From: Nitrososphaerota archaeon
Lineage (GTDB): Archaea; Thermoproteota; Nitrososphaeria; Nitrososphaerales; UBA183
Assembly: GCA_029784795.1 (NCBI GenBank)
Contig: JAFMAW010000061.1
Coordinates: 1-5,614 of the forward strand
Reading direction: 5' to 3'
DNA: 5,614 nt
This document shows, piece by piece, positions 1 to 5,614 of this stretch (within the stretch, counting starts at the first letter, position 1; the number at the start of each line of letters is the position of its first letter). The position numbers and the translations under genes are program-made. The notes beneath the pieces were generated by a model. It saw only the letters and a list, made by a program, of their open reading frames with translations. It made no database searches and was not told the origin of the DNA.

Positions 1-114
1 GAAGAAGGTCTTCCCCGGGTCGTAGAGAACCGCGATCACGTCTTTGGGTCCCAACCCTTCTTCTCCGGTCATCGCGACAGCCGCCCGCCCTACTCCGTCG
101 TCTACGTCCTGCAC
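1..114 (-). CDS. 5' part of an unidentified protein, cut by the left edge
   Basis: A minus-strand reading frame is open from an in-frame TGA at 120-118 to the left edge. It can start at GTG 114 (38 residues visible) or at ATG 72 (24 residues visible, beginning MTGEEGLGPKDVIAVLYDPG). The hydrophobic run DVIAVLY followed by DPGKTFF looks like the first beta strand of a soluble alpha/beta domain, but too little is present to name a family. It lies about 50 bases downstream of the small membrane protein on the same strand, so the two are probably co-transcribed. No clear Shine-Dalgarno sequence precedes either start. ATG 72 is the more conventional start; the GTG is used here only to show the maximal open frame. 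Function is unknown. Confidence 0.5.
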   Translation of the reverse strand, partial: MQDVDDGVGRAAVAMTGEEGLGPKDVIAVLYDPGKTFF

Positions 115-164
115 AAGTCAGACCCCGGTTGTATGCGATTCGTCAGACAAGACCCCGTCCTGGC

Positions 165-503
165 TTACTCGCGCCGGCTCCAGATTCGGTACTGGTCGAC
201 GAATGCGATGGTGAACAAGATGCCTGCGATGGAGTCGATCAACGCCCCGGCGTACAGGAGGTCGCTGGCGGCGGTTCCCACGATCGCCGTCGACAGAGCA
301 AAGACGAGGGTGGCGGCTGCGATGCACCCGGAACCGGCGGCAAGCAGGGTCCAGGGCCTCTGGTGCTTCCCGCCGCGGAACGTGAAGACGAGCCTCGCGG
401 CGAAGAAGAACATCACGAGCACGACCACCAGGTCAAAGGCATCCAGCAGGCCGAGGGCAAAGCCCAACCTGTTAGGTAGCGTCGGCAGCCGAAAGATAAC
501 CAT
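165..503 (-). CDS. small three-helix integral membrane protein, function unknown
   Basis: This 112-residue protein starts at ATG 503, and a stop lies 12 codons upstream with no other start between. Three hydrophobic segments are visible at about residues 14-43, 51-75 and 79-104. The first has the core LVVVLVMFFFAARLVF and is followed by a basic, polar FRGGKHQRP loop. The protein ends in a charged YRIWSRRE tail. Acidic residues inside or beside the helices (Asp21, Asp24, Asp80, Asp89) are unusual for a simple anchor and may be functional. I do not recognise a family. The next gene on the same strand begins about 50 bases later, so this may be the membrane partner or sensor of a soluble protein encoded off the left edge. 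That link is inference from position only. Confidence 0.65.
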   Translation of the reverse strand: MVIFRLPTLPNRLGFALGLLDAFDLVVVLVMFFFAARLVFTFRGGKHQRPWTLLAAGSGCIAAATLVFALSTAIVGTAASDLLYAGALIDSIAGILFTIAFVDQYRIWSRRE

Positions 504-661
504 TGTGCCTGATATGATGGGTGTGCGGTGCCCATGTCAATAGGCTTGGTACCCTTGCGTGGCGGGGAAACTGGATGATCGAGCCGGGTTCTGTCTGATT
601 TTGTGGGAAAAGAGCCGTGACCGCCCACGAGTTTGCTTGTTTCCTGTTGAATTGTTAAACA

Positions 662-711
662 GATAAATACCTTCCTTTTCGCCGCCTTTACCAGAAAAGG
701 GCGTATTTGAT
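662..711. promoter_or_regulatory. symmetrical divergent promoter / imperfect palindrome
   Basis: AAATAC (665-670) and CCTTTTC (674-680) face GAAAAGG (694-700) and GTATTT (703-708) across a 13-base centre, giving 13 pairs with one small internal loop. On each strand, reading outward, GAAAAGG is followed within a few bases by GTATTT(G)AT. This resembles an archaeal BRE plus TATA box. Expected start sites about 25 bases beyond each box would be near 733 on the plus strand and near 640 on the minus strand. The symmetry could instead reflect a regulator site overlapping both promoters. It is identified by eye only. Confidence 0.4.
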
Positions 712-746
712 GCAATTATCAGACATTTTTCACCTCGTGCCTATAC

Positions 747-774
747 TGTGCACGGTGTGCATAACGTGCACAGC
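747..774. promoter_or_regulatory. GTGCA repeat array / inverted repeat, candidate RHH operator
   Basis: Three copies of GTGCA(C/T) begin at 748, 757 and 766, exactly 9 bases apart. The outer copies form a perfect inverted repeat, TGTGCAC (747-753) and GTGCACA (766-772), with 12 bases between. The array ends about 9 bases before the GTG start of the first ribbon-helix-helix gene and lies just downstream of a TATA-like CTATAC at 741-746. RHH proteins of the CopG/Arc/ParG class commonly bind short repeats of roughly one-turn spacing in front of their own gene, so autoregulation is a reasonable inference. Confidence 0.45.
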
Positions 775-782
775 AGCGGGCA

Positions 783-998
783 GTGGCTACCAGAATGACC
801 GCGAACGCAGGAGTCTCTTTCGACAGCGGACTAGCGGAGCCAATCGGGAAGCGCTCTCCCCAGCCGAAGGGGTTCGGGGCCAATCGGGGCGAGGCGGTGA
901 ACGCGGTACTGACCGAATTCTTCGAGGCGGGGGGATGCACAACGGAATCGGGCTGGGAGGGCGTCAGCGGGCGGTGGACCATGCGGAGGGCTTCATGA
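783..998 (+). CDS. ribbon-helix-helix-like protein, first tandem paralogue (possibly degenerate)
   Basis: This 71-residue protein aligns without gaps from its GTG start to residue 51 with the protein encoded at 1090-1299. Both have AGVSFD at residues 9-14, Arg35, Glu37, an (E/I)xVNAxL core at 37-43 and FE at 47-48, and then share TTES near the end. By analogy, AGVSFD is the DNA-contacting beta strand and GANRGEAVNAVLTEFFEAG the dimer helix. The expected first helix (residues 16-33) is rich in Gly and Pro (Pro20, Pro26, Pro28) and unlike the helical segment of its neighbour. The gene may therefore be decaying, altered, or locally frame-disturbed. Start: GTG 783 matches the paralogue's length, and ATG 795 is the alternative. 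There is no good Shine-Dalgarno. The gap to the second copy is 91 bases, without an AT-rich promoter, so both are probably on one transcript. Confidence 0.55.
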   Translation: MATRMTANAGVSFDSGLAEPIGKRSPQPKGFGANRGEAVNAVLTEFFEAGGCTTESGWEGVSGRWTMRRAS

Positions 999-1089
999 CC
1001 AACCCACCTTGGACGGTCCACGGCGCTCTGCCGCGCAGGCTCGAACCGAGGAGCGGCGGGCTGCCGGACAAGTCCGCGAAGGGGGTCCC

Positions 1090-1299
1090 ATGATGTCTTC
1101 GAAGAAGATCCGGGCAGGCGTCTCATTCGACGGAGAAGTGGTGGTCGCGCTGGACATTCATGCGAAGAAGCTCGAGGAGCTTCAGGTCGACCGGAGCGAG
1201 ATAGTCAACGCCATCCTGGACGACTACTTCGAAGGCAACGGGACGACGGAGTCGATCTGGGGGATGGTCAGCAAGAGGAGGATCAAACGTAGAAGATGA
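1090..1299 (+). CDS. ribbon-helix-helix (CopG/Arc-type) DNA-binding protein, second paralogue
   Basis: This 69-residue basic protein has the RHH layout. A beta strand KIRAGVSFD (residues 6-14) is followed by a variable strand/helix segment GEVVVALDIHAKKLEEL (15-31). The characteristic (D)RSEIVNAILDDYFE helix comes at 34-48, then TTES and a strongly basic tail KRRIKRRR. Known RHH proteins dimerise, insert the paired strands into the major groove and usually act as repressors or partition/antitoxin factors. The start is ATG 1090, with ATG 1093 also possible. A G-rich stretch (GGGGG, 1081-1085) precedes it by about five bases. An upstream in-frame extension to TTG 1009 has low-complexity composition and no counterpart in the paralogue, so it is excluded. 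Its stop overlaps the next gene's ATG, which points to translational coupling and to control of the surface-protein genes downstream. No toxin-like partner is visible. Confidence 0.8.
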   Translation: MMSSKKIRAGVSFDGEVVVALDIHAKKLEELQVDRSEIVNAILDDYFEGNGTTESIWGMVSKRRIKRRR

Positions 1300-2174
1300 G
1301 TCCCTCGAGGCGCGAACCAAAGATAAGAAACATCCCAATCGTGCTGTTGGTAGTGGCATTGTTCGCCACTTCAACCTTGGCAGCGGTTCCTGTCACTCTA
1401 GCTGCGACCCCTGCGCTAGATTGCGGTGGGGTTGCATGTGTTGCGACCGTAGGCTCGGCAAGTGGGGGATCATCACATCCCATAACGATGTCAGGGTCCC
1501 TCAGCACCTCCAGTTCGCCCGATTTGATAGTCGTCATTGTCACCGGAGACGTGACGGGCGACACTCCTGCCACTCCAACTCTGTCCGGAGTAACATTCTC
1601 AAGCGTCTGCACTCTCACTAACAGCGCGCCGATAATCGCCATCTACGCAGGCAAGGCGGCCTCTACGCTTTCCAGTGCTACGGTTTCAGAGACAGAAAGC
1701 GGAAACGCGGGGAGCGCCACCGGAGGGATGGTCGCGTTCGGGATAAGCAACTATGACACGACCGACGCGAGCCCATTTGACGGGACGTGCACCCCGGTAG
1801 CTGGGAGCGGGACTACGCCGTCTCAGACGGTAAGCTCCTTGTCGGATGGCAACGACTTCATTTTCGCCGGTGTAACGACCAGTGGTGGCACGCTCTCCGC
1901 GACGGGGGCAACTACGCTCATCGTTGCAAACACGGGGACGGTGTACACCGCAGCTGGTTATCAGAACGGAGGGGGCGGGGGATCTTACACTCTGGCCTTC
2001 AGCGCTGCATCGGGCTCTTGGAGCGAAGGCGTGGTTGCGGTCAAATCTTCGACGCCGACGGCCGTCCCACTATTTCCTTCAGGGGTTCTTCCGATTCTTG
2101 TCACGTTGCCCTTACTTTACTACCTAGCGGCTCGATGGAGGAAGTCAGAACCCGTCCTCGGAGAGAGCCCATGA
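1296..2174 (+). CDS. secreted beta-rich surface protein with C-terminal archaeosortase sorting signal
   Basis: This 292-residue protein has a basic N-terminus and a Sec-type signal (hydrophobic residues 14-30, small-residue cleavage region near 36-39). About 210 residues of Ser/Thr/Gly/Ala-rich, beta-strand-like sequence follow. Four cysteines (43, 48, 105, 165) could form two disulfides. The pattern DLIVVIVTG...IIAIYAG...GGMVAFGISNYDTTD...SWSEGVVAVK resembles jelly-roll domains common in secreted proteins, but I cannot name a family. The C-terminus has the three-part sorting layout: VPLFP at 257-261, a hydrophobic helix at about 262-279, and a basic RWRK at 280-283, then a nine-residue tail. 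Such tails are processed by archaeosortases, and one is encoded just downstream on the other strand. The ATG overlaps the preceding regulator's TGA by four bases. A GGAGG lies at 1277-1281, rather far upstream. It is the probable target of the local sortase. Confidence 0.82.
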   Translation: MSPSRREPKIRNIPIVLLVVALFATSTLAAVPVTLAATPALDCGGVACVATVGSASGGSSHPITMSGSLSTSSSPDLIVVIVTGDVTGDTPATPTLSGVTFSSVCTLTNSAPIIAIYAGKAASTLSSATVSETESGNAGSATGGMVAFGISNYDTTDASPFDGTCTPVAGSGTTPSQTVSSLSDGNDFIFAGVTTSGGTLSATGATTLIVANTGTVYTAAGYQNGGGGGSYTLAFSAASGSWSEGVVAVKSSTPTAVPLFPSGVLPILVTLPLLYYLAARWRKSEPVLGESP

Positions 2175-2602
2175 CGCGATACTTGAACGGGAAAAAGAGA
2201 AAGCAGAGACTCCTAGCTTTAGGAGTCACTGTAGCTGCGATAGTGTTCATCGGTCTGAGCTCCTACGACAACGCTGTTGGGACCCACGTCGCGTACTCTT
2301 TCCAATCATACTGGGCGCAGCCTGCCTTGTACACCCCTGGGACGTTTCTACCTACAGCCTACCTTCAGATCAACTACACCGGAGGCGGGATGGGTCAATA
2401 CTATTACGTAATCAGCTACAACTCAACCAGCGGGTACATCGTAGCAGGCCACGGGACTGCCTCGGTCTCAGACCTTGCGGTGTTCCGGGCATATGTGAAC
2501 ATCCCCGCCCCGTCCAACGGAGTGACCGTCGCAACAGCACAGGTCTACAACGGCTCCGACCAGAACGGCACCCTCGTGTACACCGCCTCAATCGTCGTCT
2601 AG
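2171..2602 (+). CDS. short N-anchored, sequon-rich surface protein, function unknown
   Basis: This 143-residue protein begins at ATG 2171, overlapping the previous stop as ATGA, with GGAGAG (2160-2165) about five bases upstream. Residues 7-13 are basic (GKKRKQR), followed by a hydrophobic segment at about 14-30. This is either an uncleaved anchor or a signal peptide. The remaining ~110 residues are beta-strand-like and aromatic-rich (YSFQSYWAQPALYTPG, QYYYVISYN), consistent with a single Ig-like or fibronectin-like sandwich, although no family is recognised. Four N-glycosylation sequons are present: N68-Y-T, N84-S-T, N127-G-S and N132-G-T. There is no C-terminal helix or sorting signal, so it is not itself a sortase target. 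Coupling to the sorting-signal protein suggests a shared complex or 1:1 production. Its 3' end overlaps the convergent archaeosortase gene by 15 bases. Confidence 0.75.
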   Translation: MTRYLNGKKRKQRLLALGVTVAAIVFIGLSSYDNAVGTHVAYSFQSYWAQPALYTPGTFLPTAYLQINYTGGGMGQYYYVISYNSTSGYIVAGHGTASVSDLAVFRAYVNIPAPSNGVTVATAQVYNGSDQNGTLVYTASIVV

Positions 2603-3592
2603 CCCCTCCCTGGATTCTAAAGGATCCAAACCCCTTTTGTCCTCCTGGCCATTGCCCAGCCCCTGGCCAACGAGCGTCCCTGCTTCAGTGGCGTTTCTCG
2701 AGCGTCCTGGAACCTTCTTAGCTCCGAGGTAAAGAAAGAGAAGAAGAGTGTACCCGACGATGTAAAGTACATACCCGAGCCAACCATGCAGGTTCCACAT
2801 GAGGTTGGTGCCCGAATAGATGCCAGCGGTCACGAGGCCGACTACCCTGAGAGAGTTGAGGAGGACGAATAACGCAGAGCCACCAAAGGCGAAGAAGGCG
2901 CTCTTGGTCACGCTCGAGTTCATGTCGAGATGCATCATCCCGAGAATGAGAAGGAATATGGACATCGAAGCGATGCCCGAGCACTCCTGGGAGATCTCTA
3001 GATTGACGGCTTGCCCTCCCGCCCCTGTGAATGTTATGTAGACCGACGACCACTGAACAGGTTCTCCGAGCGCTCTTGTGAAACCGCTGCTTATCACCGC
3101 AACGACGACTGCAAGTGGGTCTCCGAACGAGGCCGTCAGCGCGCCGACAAATCCCACCGCCAGTGCATAGAGCATGAAGTAGGGGGCCAGAAACCGGAAA
3201 AGTGAAGGCCTGATCGCGGTCAGGATCCCGAAAAACGAACAGACAACTGCCAGTCCGGCATAAGAGTATGAGGCGTCGACTTGAGTTCCCAATGTAAGCT
3301 GAATTGCGAAGGGAGCGAAGGCTATGACGACCCCTGCCAGAGTCGTGGCCCAGTCGCGACTTTGGTCTGCCAAAAGCCGTTCTAGCTCCTTCCTCCTAAA
3401 TGACACGAACACAAGCACGAAGAACATCCCTGCAAGCGGATACGCCGGGACAGAGGTATCGAAGACTCCCCCGAGCACTTCGCCCACTTTCGAGACGAGG
3501 AGGAACACCGGCGCGCCATAAACGACCAAAGTGAAAGCGACAGCCGCTACCAGGGGCCACAGACGAGATAGATTCTGGTTGACGTGGTTCAA
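2588..3592 (-). CDS. archaeosortase/exosortase-family cysteine transpeptidase
   Basis: This 334-residue multi-pass membrane protein has about eight hydrophobic segments (roughly 12-37, 48-65, 83-101, 110-127, 131-153, 157-172, 207-221, 232-291 in two or more spans). The catalytic pattern of the family is intact: Cys204 in ECSGIASMSIF, Arg249 in LLNSLRVV, and His269 in NLHGWLGY. Family members cleave secreted proteins at a C-terminal tripartite signal and, in the ArtA model, pass them to a lipid. The likely local substrate is the VPLFP-tailed protein encoded at 1296-2174. The start is TTG 3592: the frame runs upstream to a stop at 3662-3664 with no ATG or GTG, and the next Met (56) would remove the first helix. 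An unusual feature is a hydrophilic C-terminal tail of about 43 residues (292-334), acidic at the end (GLDDD). The subfamily is not assigned; the thaumarchaeal and VP-type enzymes are the nearest comparisons from memory. Confidence 0.9.
   Translation of the reverse strand: MNHVNQNLSRLWPLVAAVAFTLVVYGAPVFLLVSKVGEVLGGVFDTSVPAYPLAGMFFVLVFVSFRRKELERLLADQSRDWATTLAGVVIAFAPFAIQLTLGTQVDASYSYAGLAVVCSFFGILTAIRPSLFRFLAPYFMLYALAVGFVGALTASFGDPLAVVVAVISSGFTRALGEPVQWSSVYITFTGAGGQAVNLEISQECSGIASMSIFLLILGMMHLDMNSSVTKSAFFAFGGSALFVLLNSLRVVGLVTAGIYSGTNLMWNLHGWLGYVLYIVGYTLLLFLYLGAKKVPGRSRNATEAGTLVGQGLGNGQEDKRGLDPLESREGLDDD
2611..2640 (+). terminator. possible terminator for the plus-strand cassette
   Basis: Nine bases after the TAG at 2600-2602, TGGAT (2611-2615) faces ATCCA (2624-2628) around an 8-base loop, followed by CCCCTTTTGT (2631-2640). 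Archaeal termination often needs only a short T-run, so the TTTT may suffice. The five-pair stem is weak, and the DNA also encodes the sortase's C-terminal tail on the other strand. Confidence 0.22.
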
Positions 3593-3697
3593 GCTAGGCT
3601 GAGCTATACGCGTGAAAGGGTGGGCCCACTTAAGCCCTATCGTGACGGATTCTCTCTATAATCATAGTTTTATGCGTGGAAACGGTGGCGGGCGGGA
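3593..3697. promoter_or_regulatory. divergent promoter region between archaeosortase and the DUF1616 operon
   Basis: For the plus strand, TTTTATG (3668-3674) is centred about 27 bases before ATG 3698. That is the expected TATA position for a transcript starting at or next to the start codon, so a leaderless mRNA is likely. For the minus strand, ATTATAG (forward CTATAAT, 3656-3662) would place initiation near 3633, giving a leader of about 40 bases before the TTG at 3592. A perfect 10-base palindrome GTGGGCCCAC at 3620-3629 sits in that leader, and could be an operator or a chance GC palindrome. All positions are read by eye. Confidence 0.4.
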
Positions 3698-4195
3698 ATG
3701 GTGAGTCGGTCAGCGGCTACCTTTGGACTCCGACGACGCAGGTGCCTCGCAATTCTTACCGCAGTAACGGTCATGCTAGCCTTCGTAATGGTCCCAGCTG
3801 TCCATTCGCAGACCTCTCAGGCAGATAGTGAGGTAAGCCAAGCCTACGCCGCGGTCCTCTCAGCCGAGAGGAGCGGGGGCAATGTGACATCGCTCGTGGC
3901 TCAGCTTAACACAGCCATCTCTCTTCTCCAGGAGGCCGACCGGCTTAACTCGACCGACCCCGCACTGGCAGCATCACTCTACACCCAAGCGTACAACAGC
4001 GCTTCGCACGTGCTCCAGGCCGCCCCGGGGGTGGCTTCGGCTGGTGCCGCATCCGTCAGGACGGCCCAGGTTGAACTCGGGGTCGAGACCGTCGTTCTGG
4101 TTGCTCTGGCGGCCCTCGCCTATCTTTACATCCCCCGCCTCTTCTGGCGCTACTGGTCGAGGACCCACAGCGACTGGAGGGTGAAGAAGCCGTGA
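3698..4195 (+). CDS. secreted helical protein with C-terminal membrane anchor
   Basis: This 165-residue protein begins with a signal peptide (RRRR at 12-15, hydrophobic core to about 34, likely cleavage near AVHS/QT at 37). Residues 43-110 are amphipathic helical, with the pattern AYAAVLSAERSGGNVTSL followed by LNTAISLLQEADRL and a third helix ASLYTQAYNSASHVLQ. This resembles a helical-bundle domain that recurs in archaeal exported proteins, recalled from memory and not nameable. Sequons occur at N62-V-T and N84-S-T. A transmembrane helix (about 129-145) is followed by an aromatic and basic cytoplasmic tail (RLFWRYW...RVKKP). The long tail and lack of a Pro motif before the helix argue against sortase processing. 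It opens an operon: its TGA overlaps the GTG of the next gene by four bases. The role is probably structural or scaffolding in a cell-envelope complex with the DUF1616 proteins. Confidence 0.8.
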   Translation: MVSRSAATFGLRRRRCLAILTAVTVMLAFVMVPAVHSQTSQADSEVSQAYAAVLSAERSGGNVTSLVAQLNTAISLLQEADRLNSTDPALAASLYTQAYNSASHVLQAAPGVASAGAASVRTAQVELGVETVVLVALAALAYLYIPRLFWRYWSRTHSDWRVKKP

Positions 4196-4674
4196 TCGAC
4201 GACGACATGAAGGTCGCGGCCGTGGGGGTCATAGTCCTCATCGCCGTCTTCAACGTCTCAGGCTACTACTTCGCCAACAGGAACGTCGAGCCCTTCTCCG
4301 AGCTGGGCATCCTCGGCCCCGGCCAGAAGATAGCCAACTACCCCACCAGCGTCTTCACCGGCCAGAACTTCTCCCTCTACCTCTACGTCGGGAACCACGA
4401 GGGCCAGGTGTCCTACTACCAGGTCCTGACCAAGCTCGGCACCAGGGCCAATGCCAACCAGAGCGTCCCCCTCGCCGCGCCCCCCATAGCCTCCTACGGC
4501 ATGGTCCTGCTCAACAACCAGAACGTCACAGAGCCCATCACACTGAGCCTGGGCCAGAACGGGACCAACGTCCGCCTCGTCTTCGAGCTCTGGATCTACG
4601 AGACGAACTCGAGCTCCTTCCAGTTCTACACCTCCAACTGGCTGTACCTCAACGTCACGGGGCCCTCGGTATGA
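4192..4674 (+). CDS. DUF1616 extracellular-domain protein (C-terminal half of the family as a separate gene)
   Basis: This 160-residue protein has one N-terminal transmembrane helix (about 7-28) and an exported beta-sandwich-like domain. Residues 35-51 (FSELGILGPGQKIANYP) and GNHEG at 67-71 match the C-terminal extracellular part of DUF1616 proteins as I know it, where the motif is followed by an NHEG turn. Six sequons lie outside the membrane (Asn59, 89, 111, 123, 139 and 154), so it is probably heavily glycosylated. GTG 4192 is preferred over ATG 4207 because GGAGGGTGA (4176-4184) sits seven bases before it and it overlaps the upstream TGA. The stop overlaps the next ATG as ATGA. The biochemical function of DUF1616 is not established. 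Here it is most likely the outer-face subunit of a complex whose membrane part is encoded next. Confidence 0.82.
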   Translation: MIDDDMKVAAVGVIVLIAVFNVSGYYFANRNVEPFSELGILGPGQKIANYPTSVFTGQNFSLYLYVGNHEGQVSYYQVLTKLGTRANANQSVPLAAPPIASYGMVLLNNQNVTEPITLSLGQNGTNVRLVFELWIYETNSSSFQFYTSNWLYLNVTGPSV

Positions 4675-5273
4675 GCGACCAGGTCAACCCCAGGCAGAAG
4701 CGCGCGAAGGAGGTCCTGAGCTCCGTCCTCGCCAGCGAGATGTCCGTCAAGGACGCCCTCTCAAGGGCGACCCAGGGGACCGGGGCCACCCCCGTCGACG
4801 CCTCGAGGGCGCTCTACTCGCTCCTGGAGGAGAAGAAGGCTGCGCTCGCCGACCCATCCCCCCCGGCCTCGACCTTCGAGTACCTGGGCCGCGCCTACTC
4901 CTCCTGGTTCTGGGTGACGGTGGCGTTCCTCGCGGTGACTGTGAGCTCGATCTACCTCCTCCCGCAGTACCCCCCCTTCGTCTACGTCAGGTACGTCTTC
5001 GGCGCCATAGCTGTGCTCTACTTCCCGGGCTACACCCTCATCGAGGCCCTCTACCCCAAGAAGGAGGACCTCGACAGCCTGGAGCGCCTCGCCCTCTCCA
5101 TCGGCCTGAGCCTGGCCCTGGTCCCGCTGGTGGGGCTCCTCCTCAACTACACCCCATGGGGGATACGCCTCGACCCCATAGTGGTCTCGCTCTCCATCCT
5201 CGGAGTCGGCCTGGCGCTGGTGGCCGCGGTCCGGAAGGAGTCGTACATCAGGCTCACCGCGAGGGCGGGGTAG
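4671..5273 (+). CDS. DUF1616 membrane-domain protein (N-terminal half of the family as a separate gene)
   Basis: This 200-residue protein has a cytoplasmic helical N-terminus (about 1-62, including MSVKDALSRA and ASRALYSLLEEKK, possibly a small winged-helix-like fold). Four transmembrane helices follow (about 78-97, 104-125, 139-158, 167-187). The stretch LYFPGYTLIEALYPKKEDLD, then SLERLALSIGLSLALVPLVG and NYTPWGIRLDPI, is the signature of the N-terminal membrane region of DUF1616 proteins. In the usual single-chain form a further helix and the extracellular domain follow. Here the chain ends soon after helix 4, and the missing part is the preceding gene. No Shine-Dalgarno is visible at ATG 4671, so translation probably relies on coupling through the ATGA overlap. 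The next gene starts four bases after the stop. Codons end almost only in C or G. Confidence 0.85.
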   Translation: MSDQVNPRQKRAKEVLSSVLASEMSVKDALSRATQGTGATPVDASRALYSLLEEKKAALADPSPPASTFEYLGRAYSSWFWVTVAFLAVTVSSIYLLPQYPPFVYVRYVFGAIAVLYFPGYTLIEALYPKKEDLDSLERLALSIGLSLALVPLVGLLLNYTPWGIRLDPIVVSLSILGVGLALVAAVRKESYIRLTARAG

Positions 5274-5277
5274 AGGC

Positions 5278-5614
5278 TTGGCAAGGTACTTCTCCTTCGG
5301 CGCCGGCATCGCCGCCTTCGGGGCCGTCGTCGCCTTCGTCTCCTACTACTTCCTCTTCAGCGCCCCCTTCGCCGCCCTGGGGGTGGCCTGCGTGATACTC
5401 GGCGGTGCGACCATCACCCTCCCCGAGTCCCCGGTCCCCAGCGGCGCGGTGCGGGGCGTCGTCCACGCGTCCGTCATGAACGTGGAGGCCCTCCTCGAGG
5501 AGTTCGACGTCCGCGAGAAGGCCGTCTACCTCCCCCCCAGGGAGGGGGAGTCCGTCGCCTACGTCCCGCTGGCGTCCAACCCTCGCGTCCCCTCGGCGGA
5601 CTCGCTCATGAAGG
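5278..5614 (+). CDS. membrane protein, 5' part, cut by the right edge
   Basis: An open frame of 112 codons starts at TTG 5278, four bases after the upstream stop, with GAGG (5273-5276) just before it. The protein begins MARYFSFGAGIAAFGAVVAF, with two transmembrane segments at about 7-27 and 29-48 separated by a very short turn. A cytoplasmic or soluble domain follows with MNVEALLEEFDVREKAVYLP, then PPREGESVAYVPLAS and NPRVPSADSLMK before the edge. The two-helix hairpin plus a 'VEALLEEFDV...AVYLPPR...AYVPL' pattern recalls uncharacterised archaeal membrane proteins, but I cannot give a family name. Strong C/G-ending codon bias matches the two genes upstream, supporting real coding and membership of the same operon. 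The next Met (67) would delete both helices, so the TTG start is preferred. Confidence 0.75.
   Translation, partial: MARYFSFGAGIAAFGAVVAFVSYYFLFSAPFAALGVACVILGGATITLPESPVPSGAVRGVVHASVMNVEALLEEFDVREKAVYLPPREGESVAYVPLASNPRVPSADSLMK

Follow-up and report, generated by a model that had tools for sequence, protein, structure and literature searches.

Sorting systems in which one sorting enzyme serves one adjacently encoded target are called dedicated and were defined for the pair of rhombosortase and GlyGly-CTERM, according to an excerpt of the respective work (PMC3237569). In Haloferax, substrates of the archaeosortase ArtA are cut and lipid-anchored, as given in an excerpt of PMC7157517, while an excerpt of PMC5569661 describes ribbon-helix-helix (RHH) proteins of archaeal viruses that act as repressors of their own genes, with cooperative binding to repeated sites. 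Here, we analyzed a 5,614 nt stretch from a Nitrososphaerota archaeon (contig JAFMAW010000061.1, positions 1 to 5,614; in the following called the window), in which an archaeosortase gene lies next to genes for a secreted protein with a sorting tail (the target), for a second surface protein (the companion) and for two RHH-type proteins (RHH1 and RHH2), preceded by a repeated sequence element. We consider this locus to be a dedicated archaeosortase cassette with a substrate operon autoregulated by an RHH protein, and put the probability of this interpretation at about 0.68. Genomes, contigs and loci are given by our own G, C and L numbers.

The window belongs to contig C8 of an archaeal metagenome-assembled genome (MAG; G000) of 1.39 Mb in 32 contigs that is 90.9% complete; C8 stops before window bases 4139–5614. 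A second sequence, JAKAUC010000009.1 (archaeon isolate YP3.bin16), is 98.7% identical to the window over 5,590 aligned bases, and the organism-named relatives of the sortase and RHH proteins come from Nitrososphaerota/Thaumarchaeota MAGs. An earlier note, made from the sequence alone, had proposed five open reading frames (ORFs) between 783 and 3592, namely two RHH-type genes, a secreted protein ending in VPLFP, a hydrophobic stretch and RWRK, a surface protein rich in N-x-S/T sites, and an enzyme with the Cys/Arg/His set of archaeosortases. All five are present where proposed (Table 1), and the last three assignments are borne out by the results below; what needed correction is the strand of the sortase gene, the state of RHH1 and the basis on which the RHH proteins are assigned. 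RHH2, target and companion overlap by ATGA at both junctions, and the sortase gene, convergent to the companion gene, overlaps it by 15 bp. This arrangement suggests a single, translationally coupled operon of RHH2, target and companion, with the sortase as a separate unit.

The window sortase passes the models PF09721 (60.5 bits, cut-off 25.7) and TIGR04178 (45.2 bits, cut-off 23). Cys204, Arg249 and His269 are invariant in all nine aligned window-type sortases (window included); the role of this set in the membrane segments of such enzymes we take as given. None of the named archaeosortase families fits. The best match among the archaeosortase models is TIGR03762 (ArtC), to which the protein does not belong (24.3 bits, cut-off 100), and no Thaumarchaeosortase/PEFG-CTERM model was among the model matches listed for it. 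A profile search of solved structures gave nine matches, the best to receptors with an E-value of 0.017, which we all regard as chance. A viral home was likewise rejected, as no relative was found among the viral contigs searched. For the distribution we used 46 genomes of the same family, 31 of them in the same genus, and a set of 350 taken from the order. The window-type sortase (at least 427 bits) occurs in ten of the 46 genomes, all in one genus, and the order-wide set yielded the same ten only. Eight of these ten additionally encode a sortase of another class. The second sortase of the source genome is 33% identical to the first and adjoins a protein with the tail IPVFPF. Of the remaining 36 genomes, 25 contain some other sortase match, which is weak in G021, G026, G066 and G067. 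The most distant window-type sortase (G009, L072:9267–12245) adjoins a 992-aa protein with the tail IPEFPDG and no small target.

The target combines a signal-peptide-like helix with a C-terminal tail in which the signature VPLFPSG is followed by a hydrophobic helix (residues 264–283 in the structure model) and RWRK. In the model (predicted local distance difference test score, pLDDT, 82), a helix at the N terminus is followed by beta strands, and a further helix comes directly after the motif. No Pfam or NCBIfam family matched the target, nor did any NCBIfam model match its tail, and a comparison of the model with the PDB gave nothing at E ≤ 0.001 (best 0.035), for which reason we simply call the fold a beta-sandwich. 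Across eight cassette targets, seven of them 24–41% identical to that of the window, P258, P261 and G263 of the tail (P-x-x-P-x-G) are the sole invariant columns; in a 14-row alignment with seven metagenome relatives added and G018 omitted, P32, C48, W242 and P266 are invariant as well.

This tail class is represented by one protein in the source genome, as far as the 90.9% complete MAG shows. Among 47 DNA matches to [V/I/M]PxFP (reversed control: 54), just three are C-terminal tails by our criteria, those of the window target, of the neighbor of the second sortase and of a large protein at C32:18349 (IPEFPLQ). A tail model returned one match below an E-value of 1e-5 each in G000, G008, G012, G004, G030, G029 and G009, two each in G018 and G022, and none in G023 (best 0.049); since the model was built from most of the tails it found, its informative part is the absence of others. 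The next matches in the source genome had E-values of 0.028 (C32) and 9.2 (C27). At the loci of the other sortase class (L002, L012–L031), our filter found an adjacently encoded xPxFP tail in 14 of 21 cases. Within the genus, that class thus tends to adjoin an xPxFP protein of its own (L002 corresponds to G000:C27), forming an RHH-free pair.

The companion carries four N-x-S/T sites in 143 amino acids, compared to zero in the target, and its structure model predicts an immunoglobulin (Ig)-like domain. The motif L-x-I-N-Y-T is kept in six aligned companions. In G004 the companion was detected by tblastn (E-value 4e-29). Next to the sortase gene of G023, all that is left of the companion gene is a frameshifted piece interrupted by a stop, so the cassette has decayed in this genome.

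RHH, target, companion and sortase genes are linked on one contig in seven genomes (G000, G008, G012, G018, G022, G004 and G030), of which G000 and G008 are almost identical in sequence at the cassette. In G029 the RHH–target part and the sortase lie on two contig ends, so that the linkage there is inferred. The co-occurrence expected from the earlier note was also found. RHH relatives are present in ten of the 46 family genomes and coincide with the window-type sortase in eight (Fisher p = 7e-6, and 5e-5 within the genus, kinship being ignored in both values). Among the 350 genomes of the order, RHH relatives occur in 11 and are joined by the sortase in the same eight. No RHH gene was found at the other-class loci L002, L012–L031 and L073–L083, where many flanks span about 1.5 kb. 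In metagenomes, 8 of 38 sortase clusters match an RHH cluster in the size of the longest contig, a proxy for location on the same contig (73 of 106 RHH clusters compared); six such sizes are common to two RHH clusters.

The assignment of the regulators as RHH proteins is probable and is based on a pattern and on relatives. The strand-helix-helix pattern of RHH2 was read by eye (RAGVSFD ... RSEIVNAILDDYFE). Five of 36 RHH relatives match PF12651 (RHH_3) weakly (best E-value 0.0039), and 16 of 106 are named CopG/Arc/MetJ-type regulators by JGI, as counted from the listing. A profile search of solved structures gave one match, taken as chance (E-value 1.2). Both RHH copies look whole in G018 and G021, and in G030 as far as the contig reaches. 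Judging from these sequences, the tandem pair proposed in the earlier note is real and older than the source species, but just one sound copy is left in the window. Compared with G012, the ratio of nonsynonymous to synonymous divergence (dN/dS) is 1.08 for RHH1, a rough value, and 0.33 for RHH2 (71 and 68 codons, respectively). The first helix of RHH1 is unrecognizable in the window and in G012, and the copy in G022 contains a stop; RHH1 of the window is thus probably not working. Further members of the RHH family precede a different secreted protein with the end ...DKTNFSPP..V (L167:11231–11966 and L169:3961–4700), and the family may therefore control several surface operons.

Twelve bp upstream of RHH1 lies a three-fold array, GTGCAC GGT GTGCAT AAC GTGCAC, that is unique in the source genome when one mismatch is allowed (control: 0). 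It was found in eight of the 46 family genomes (10 sites; reversed control: two sites in two genomes). The exact array occurs in seven genomes, at a distance of about 8–132 bp from a downstream RHH gene or what remains of one, and a one-mismatch version in G068, of a second genus, precedes the RHH gene of that genome. In G018 two of the three units are present, and in G030 the contig ends before the array position. The CopG operator is known for a TGCA-N5-TGCA site, and a reference title names a 13-bp symmetric element. In G071, which belongs to a second family, one TGCA-N5-TGCA site lies just before the conserved start of the RHH gene and another near its coding end. The C-terminal VH.VH, a reading of GTGCACNNNGTGCAC, is found in 16 of 106 RHH relatives but in none of 49 other proteins. 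Together with the double sites of G071, these ends suggest that the link between site and regulator does not depend on the sortase, although VH.VH may be retained as protein sequence instead. In a sister RHH group (L204 of G071, 1456–1740; P0116–P0143), the RHH gene is overlapped at either end by operator-like GTGCAC repeats, which can be translated as MHSVH/CTVCT at its beginning and as VH.VH at its terminus. No triple array was seen in the stretches fetched for RHH paralogues of G008, G022, G029, G018 and G012 (L165–L170). We regard the array as a probable autoregulatory operator. The window holds no second array, hence none before the sortase, and the regulated unit is therefore likely target and companion, not the enzyme. 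Judged by the archaeal TATA consensus, ATAAATA is a candidate promoter element; it lies in a block (661–720) that matches G012 at all 60 positions and recurs in G022.

The earlier note had concluded on a regulated, single-substrate module. One class tail in the source genome, the conserved linkage and the unique array before the operon speak for this conclusion, and the many other VPxFP-tailed proteins that would have pointed to a general enzyme are not found there. It has to be narrowed, however, as the enzyme is likely outside the regulated unit, and G022 and G018 each encode a second tailed protein (L167 and C24, the latter cut by the contig end), each with its own companion gene, so that a single substrate is not a family-wide rule. 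These tailed-protein/companion pairs (L167:7005–8679 and L195, G018:C24) have no sortase among the listed neighbors, and the pair in G022 is RHH-led.

Several observations weigh against our interpretation. Neither RHH protein of the window matches an RHH model in Pfam or NCBIfam. The window-type sortase stands without RHH in two of ten genomes (G009 and G023), so that separation of the enzyme from the regulators, named in the earlier note as a contrary case, occurs in part; conversely, RHH is found without this sortase in two of ten (G021 and G068). One-mismatch arrays in G022 (C3:253363) and G004 (C55:7424) lie away from RHH genes, and use of the TATA-like box would place the array well downstream of the start site, which would call for an elongation block or another start site. 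In the comparison of G022 with G029, RHH2 is more diverged than the target (synonymous divergence, dS, 0.70 and 0.26, respectively), so the regulator is not always the fixed part. Finally, P-x-x-P-x-G is found on both tailed proteins beside the other-class sortase of G061 (L181) and on a tail in G003 (L177) whose neighboring sortase match is weak; the tails at L174, L179, L180 and L176 are without the extra G.

The G061 tails also favor general sorting of the PEF type, in which both sortases would process every IPxFP or VPxFP tail and the adjacency to one target would be historical. The tails of both sortase classes are alike, and one of the other class, at C32, is a weak match of the tail model. 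Yet, the two classes are about 30% identical to each other and each usually lies beside its own tail form. The G following P-x-x-P-x is present in 12 of 12 window-class tails, which were chosen as cassette targets or relatives, compared to 1 of 14 other-class tails (L028). With the cases in G061, G003 and L028, P-x-x-P-x-G accompanies the window class of sortase but is not exclusive to it. Considering also the single tail of this class in the source genome, we judge general sorting unlikely and retain the dedicated cassette.

The cassette occupies a recurrent position. The flanking DUF1616 operon, with PF07760 matches at 4192–4674 and 4671–5273, adjoins the sortase in relatives whose contigs reach that far, and a gene resembling a VWA protein (by eye) lies on the RHH side, again where contigs reach. 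Between the window and G012, which represent two species, identity is 88% across the 1,284 bp of the promoter/RHH part and drops near window position 1281 at the end of RHH2. The corresponding dS values are 0.18 for RHH1 and 0.29 for RHH2, versus 2.4 for the target, 2.6 for the companion and 2.9 for the sortase; values above about 2 are saturated and say that sequences are very diverged, nothing finer. Between G004 and G029, dS is 0.15 for RHH2, 0.24 and 0.61 for the DUF1616 pieces, 2.8 for the target and 1.4 for the sortase, and between G022 and G029 it is 0.82 for the sortase and 0.22 for DUF1616. Saturated cargo genes beside a little-diverged RHH2 suggest that versions of target, companion and sortase were exchanged at a fixed site, and from the sequences these versions did not always move in one block.

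Alternatively, the cargo genes could have diverged rapidly in place under selection, without exchange, as surface proteins often evolve fast. Against this, synonymous sites of the cargo are saturated while those of the neighboring RHH2 and DUF1616 genes are not, and cargo dN/dS is low (0.13–0.30). Moreover, G022 and G029 share their target, while that of G004 differs by a dS of 2.8–3.4 despite the similarity of RHH2 in G004 and G029. We therefore consider divergence in place improbable, more so than general sorting. Exchange could go as far as a socket that receives changing cartridges, with promoter, operator and RHH gene fixed and related archaea recombining versions of sortase, substrate and companion, such that the enzyme–substrate pair changes under lasting control, similar to a variable-antigen locus. 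Because of the RHH2 result for G022 and G029, we propose this only tentatively, at slightly less than even odds. A toxin-antitoxin-like pair of RHH2 and target, with an RHH antitoxin before its partner gene, was rejected as highly improbable, as the short overlapping RHH gene and one relative matching a MazE model below the cut-off (E-value 0.11) are outweighed by a partner with signal peptide, beta-sandwich and sorting tail, whose sole conserved part is that tail.

For the dedicated cassette we propose the following working. RHH2 would bind the three-fold GTGCAC array and repress its own operon, and its release would allow target and companion to be made. After export, the target would be retained by its hydrophobic C terminus and cleaved near VPLFPSG by the archaeosortase of the convergent gene, which would probably transfer it to a membrane lipid. 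The companion would stay attached through its N-terminal helix and may display a glycosylated Ig-like domain beside the target, with which it may work jointly. The sortase would be expressed from its own promoter. Within one genus, the locus would be a fixed site where recombination has exchanged versions of target, companion and sortase.

Table 1 Features of the window, with the basis of each assignment.
Feature	Position	Strand	Basis
TATA-like ATAAATA, candidate promoter element	663..669	+	by eye, archaeal consensus
Three-fold array GTGCAC-N3-GTGCAT-N3-GTGCAC, probable RHH operator	748..771	no strand	genome site search
RHH1, decaying RHH-type copy	783..998	+	RHH-relative profile E 1.5e-10; dN/dS 1.08
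RHH2, probable RHH-type regulator	1093..1299	+	in 10/46 family genomes; dN/dS 0.21–0.33
Target, secreted protein with sortase tail	1296..2174	+	signal helix, beta-sandwich, C-terminal helix in model
Tail signature VPLFPSG, residues 257–263	2064..2084	+	P258, P261, G263 invariant in 8 targets
Companion, N-terminal membrane helix and beta-sandwich with N-x-S/T sites	2171..2602	+	model, fold matches
EpsH-type archaeosortase	2588..3592	-	Cys204 2981–2983, Arg249 2846–2848, His269 2786–2788
Flanking operon: 165-aa secreted protein, two DUF1616 pieces, start of further gene	3698..5614	+	marks fixed site

The flanking operon is patchy, since 13 of 15 cassette-free genomes searched are without a match to 4671–5273 (L064:1–8130); the G001 contig, at 3,258 bases, does not extend far enough to show what occupies the site there. 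Elsewhere on contig C8 of the source genome, two near-identical short ORF ends (VPSFPLQNVLTANQ...) form a repeat (11969–11982 and 13585–13598; L040 and L041).

Dedicated sorting pairs and the lipid anchoring of ArtA substrates are already known. An RHH-led archaeosortase cassette did not appear in titles or abstract beginnings of the open-licence literature searched; PMC7439475, returned for archaeosortase with ribbon-helix-helix, names archaeosortase once, in its reference list. New here are the three-fold GTGCAC array before RHH genes, which is shared by other species and by a second genus and takes the form of double sites in a second family, and the mosaic divergence of a conserved promoter/RHH part next to saturated target, companion and sortase genes. 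The locus offers a minimal archaeosortase–substrate pair, in which specificity can be tested by comparing the enzymes and tails that occur in nature. It also provides a defined candidate operator through which an archaeal regulator may govern surface display, and it marks a position where archaea seem to swap surface-protein genes while retaining the place and often the regulator.

Compared with known systems, the regulatory part resembles the RHH autorepressors SvtR, AvtR and F55 of archaeal viruses and CopG of plasmids in combining a small, probably RHH-type protein with repeated short sites near its own gene; it differs in that the window RHH has no sequence match to known structures and that its operon encodes a sortase substrate. 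Archaeosortase C, which we presume to be paired with PEF-CTERM, is the closest model for the enzyme and shares the xPxFP tail, but the window sortase scores far below its cut-off, and the window tail has a further G. ArtA serves many PGF-tailed proteins. As with Haloferax ArtA, the window sortase belongs to the same superfamily and its target has a tripartite tail; unlike there, the window sortase has no ArtA model match, and its processing activity is a prediction. Closest in organization is rhombosortase/GlyGly-CTERM, where, as in the window, the enzyme adjoins one target only, whose C-terminal tail is tripartite (PMC3237569). The single class tail in the genome and the target within one gene of the enzyme agree with such a dedicated system. 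In contrast to it, the window enzyme comes from a different family, and the cassette adds an RHH gene, a putative operator array and an Ig-like companion, with genes apparently exchanged at a fixed site.

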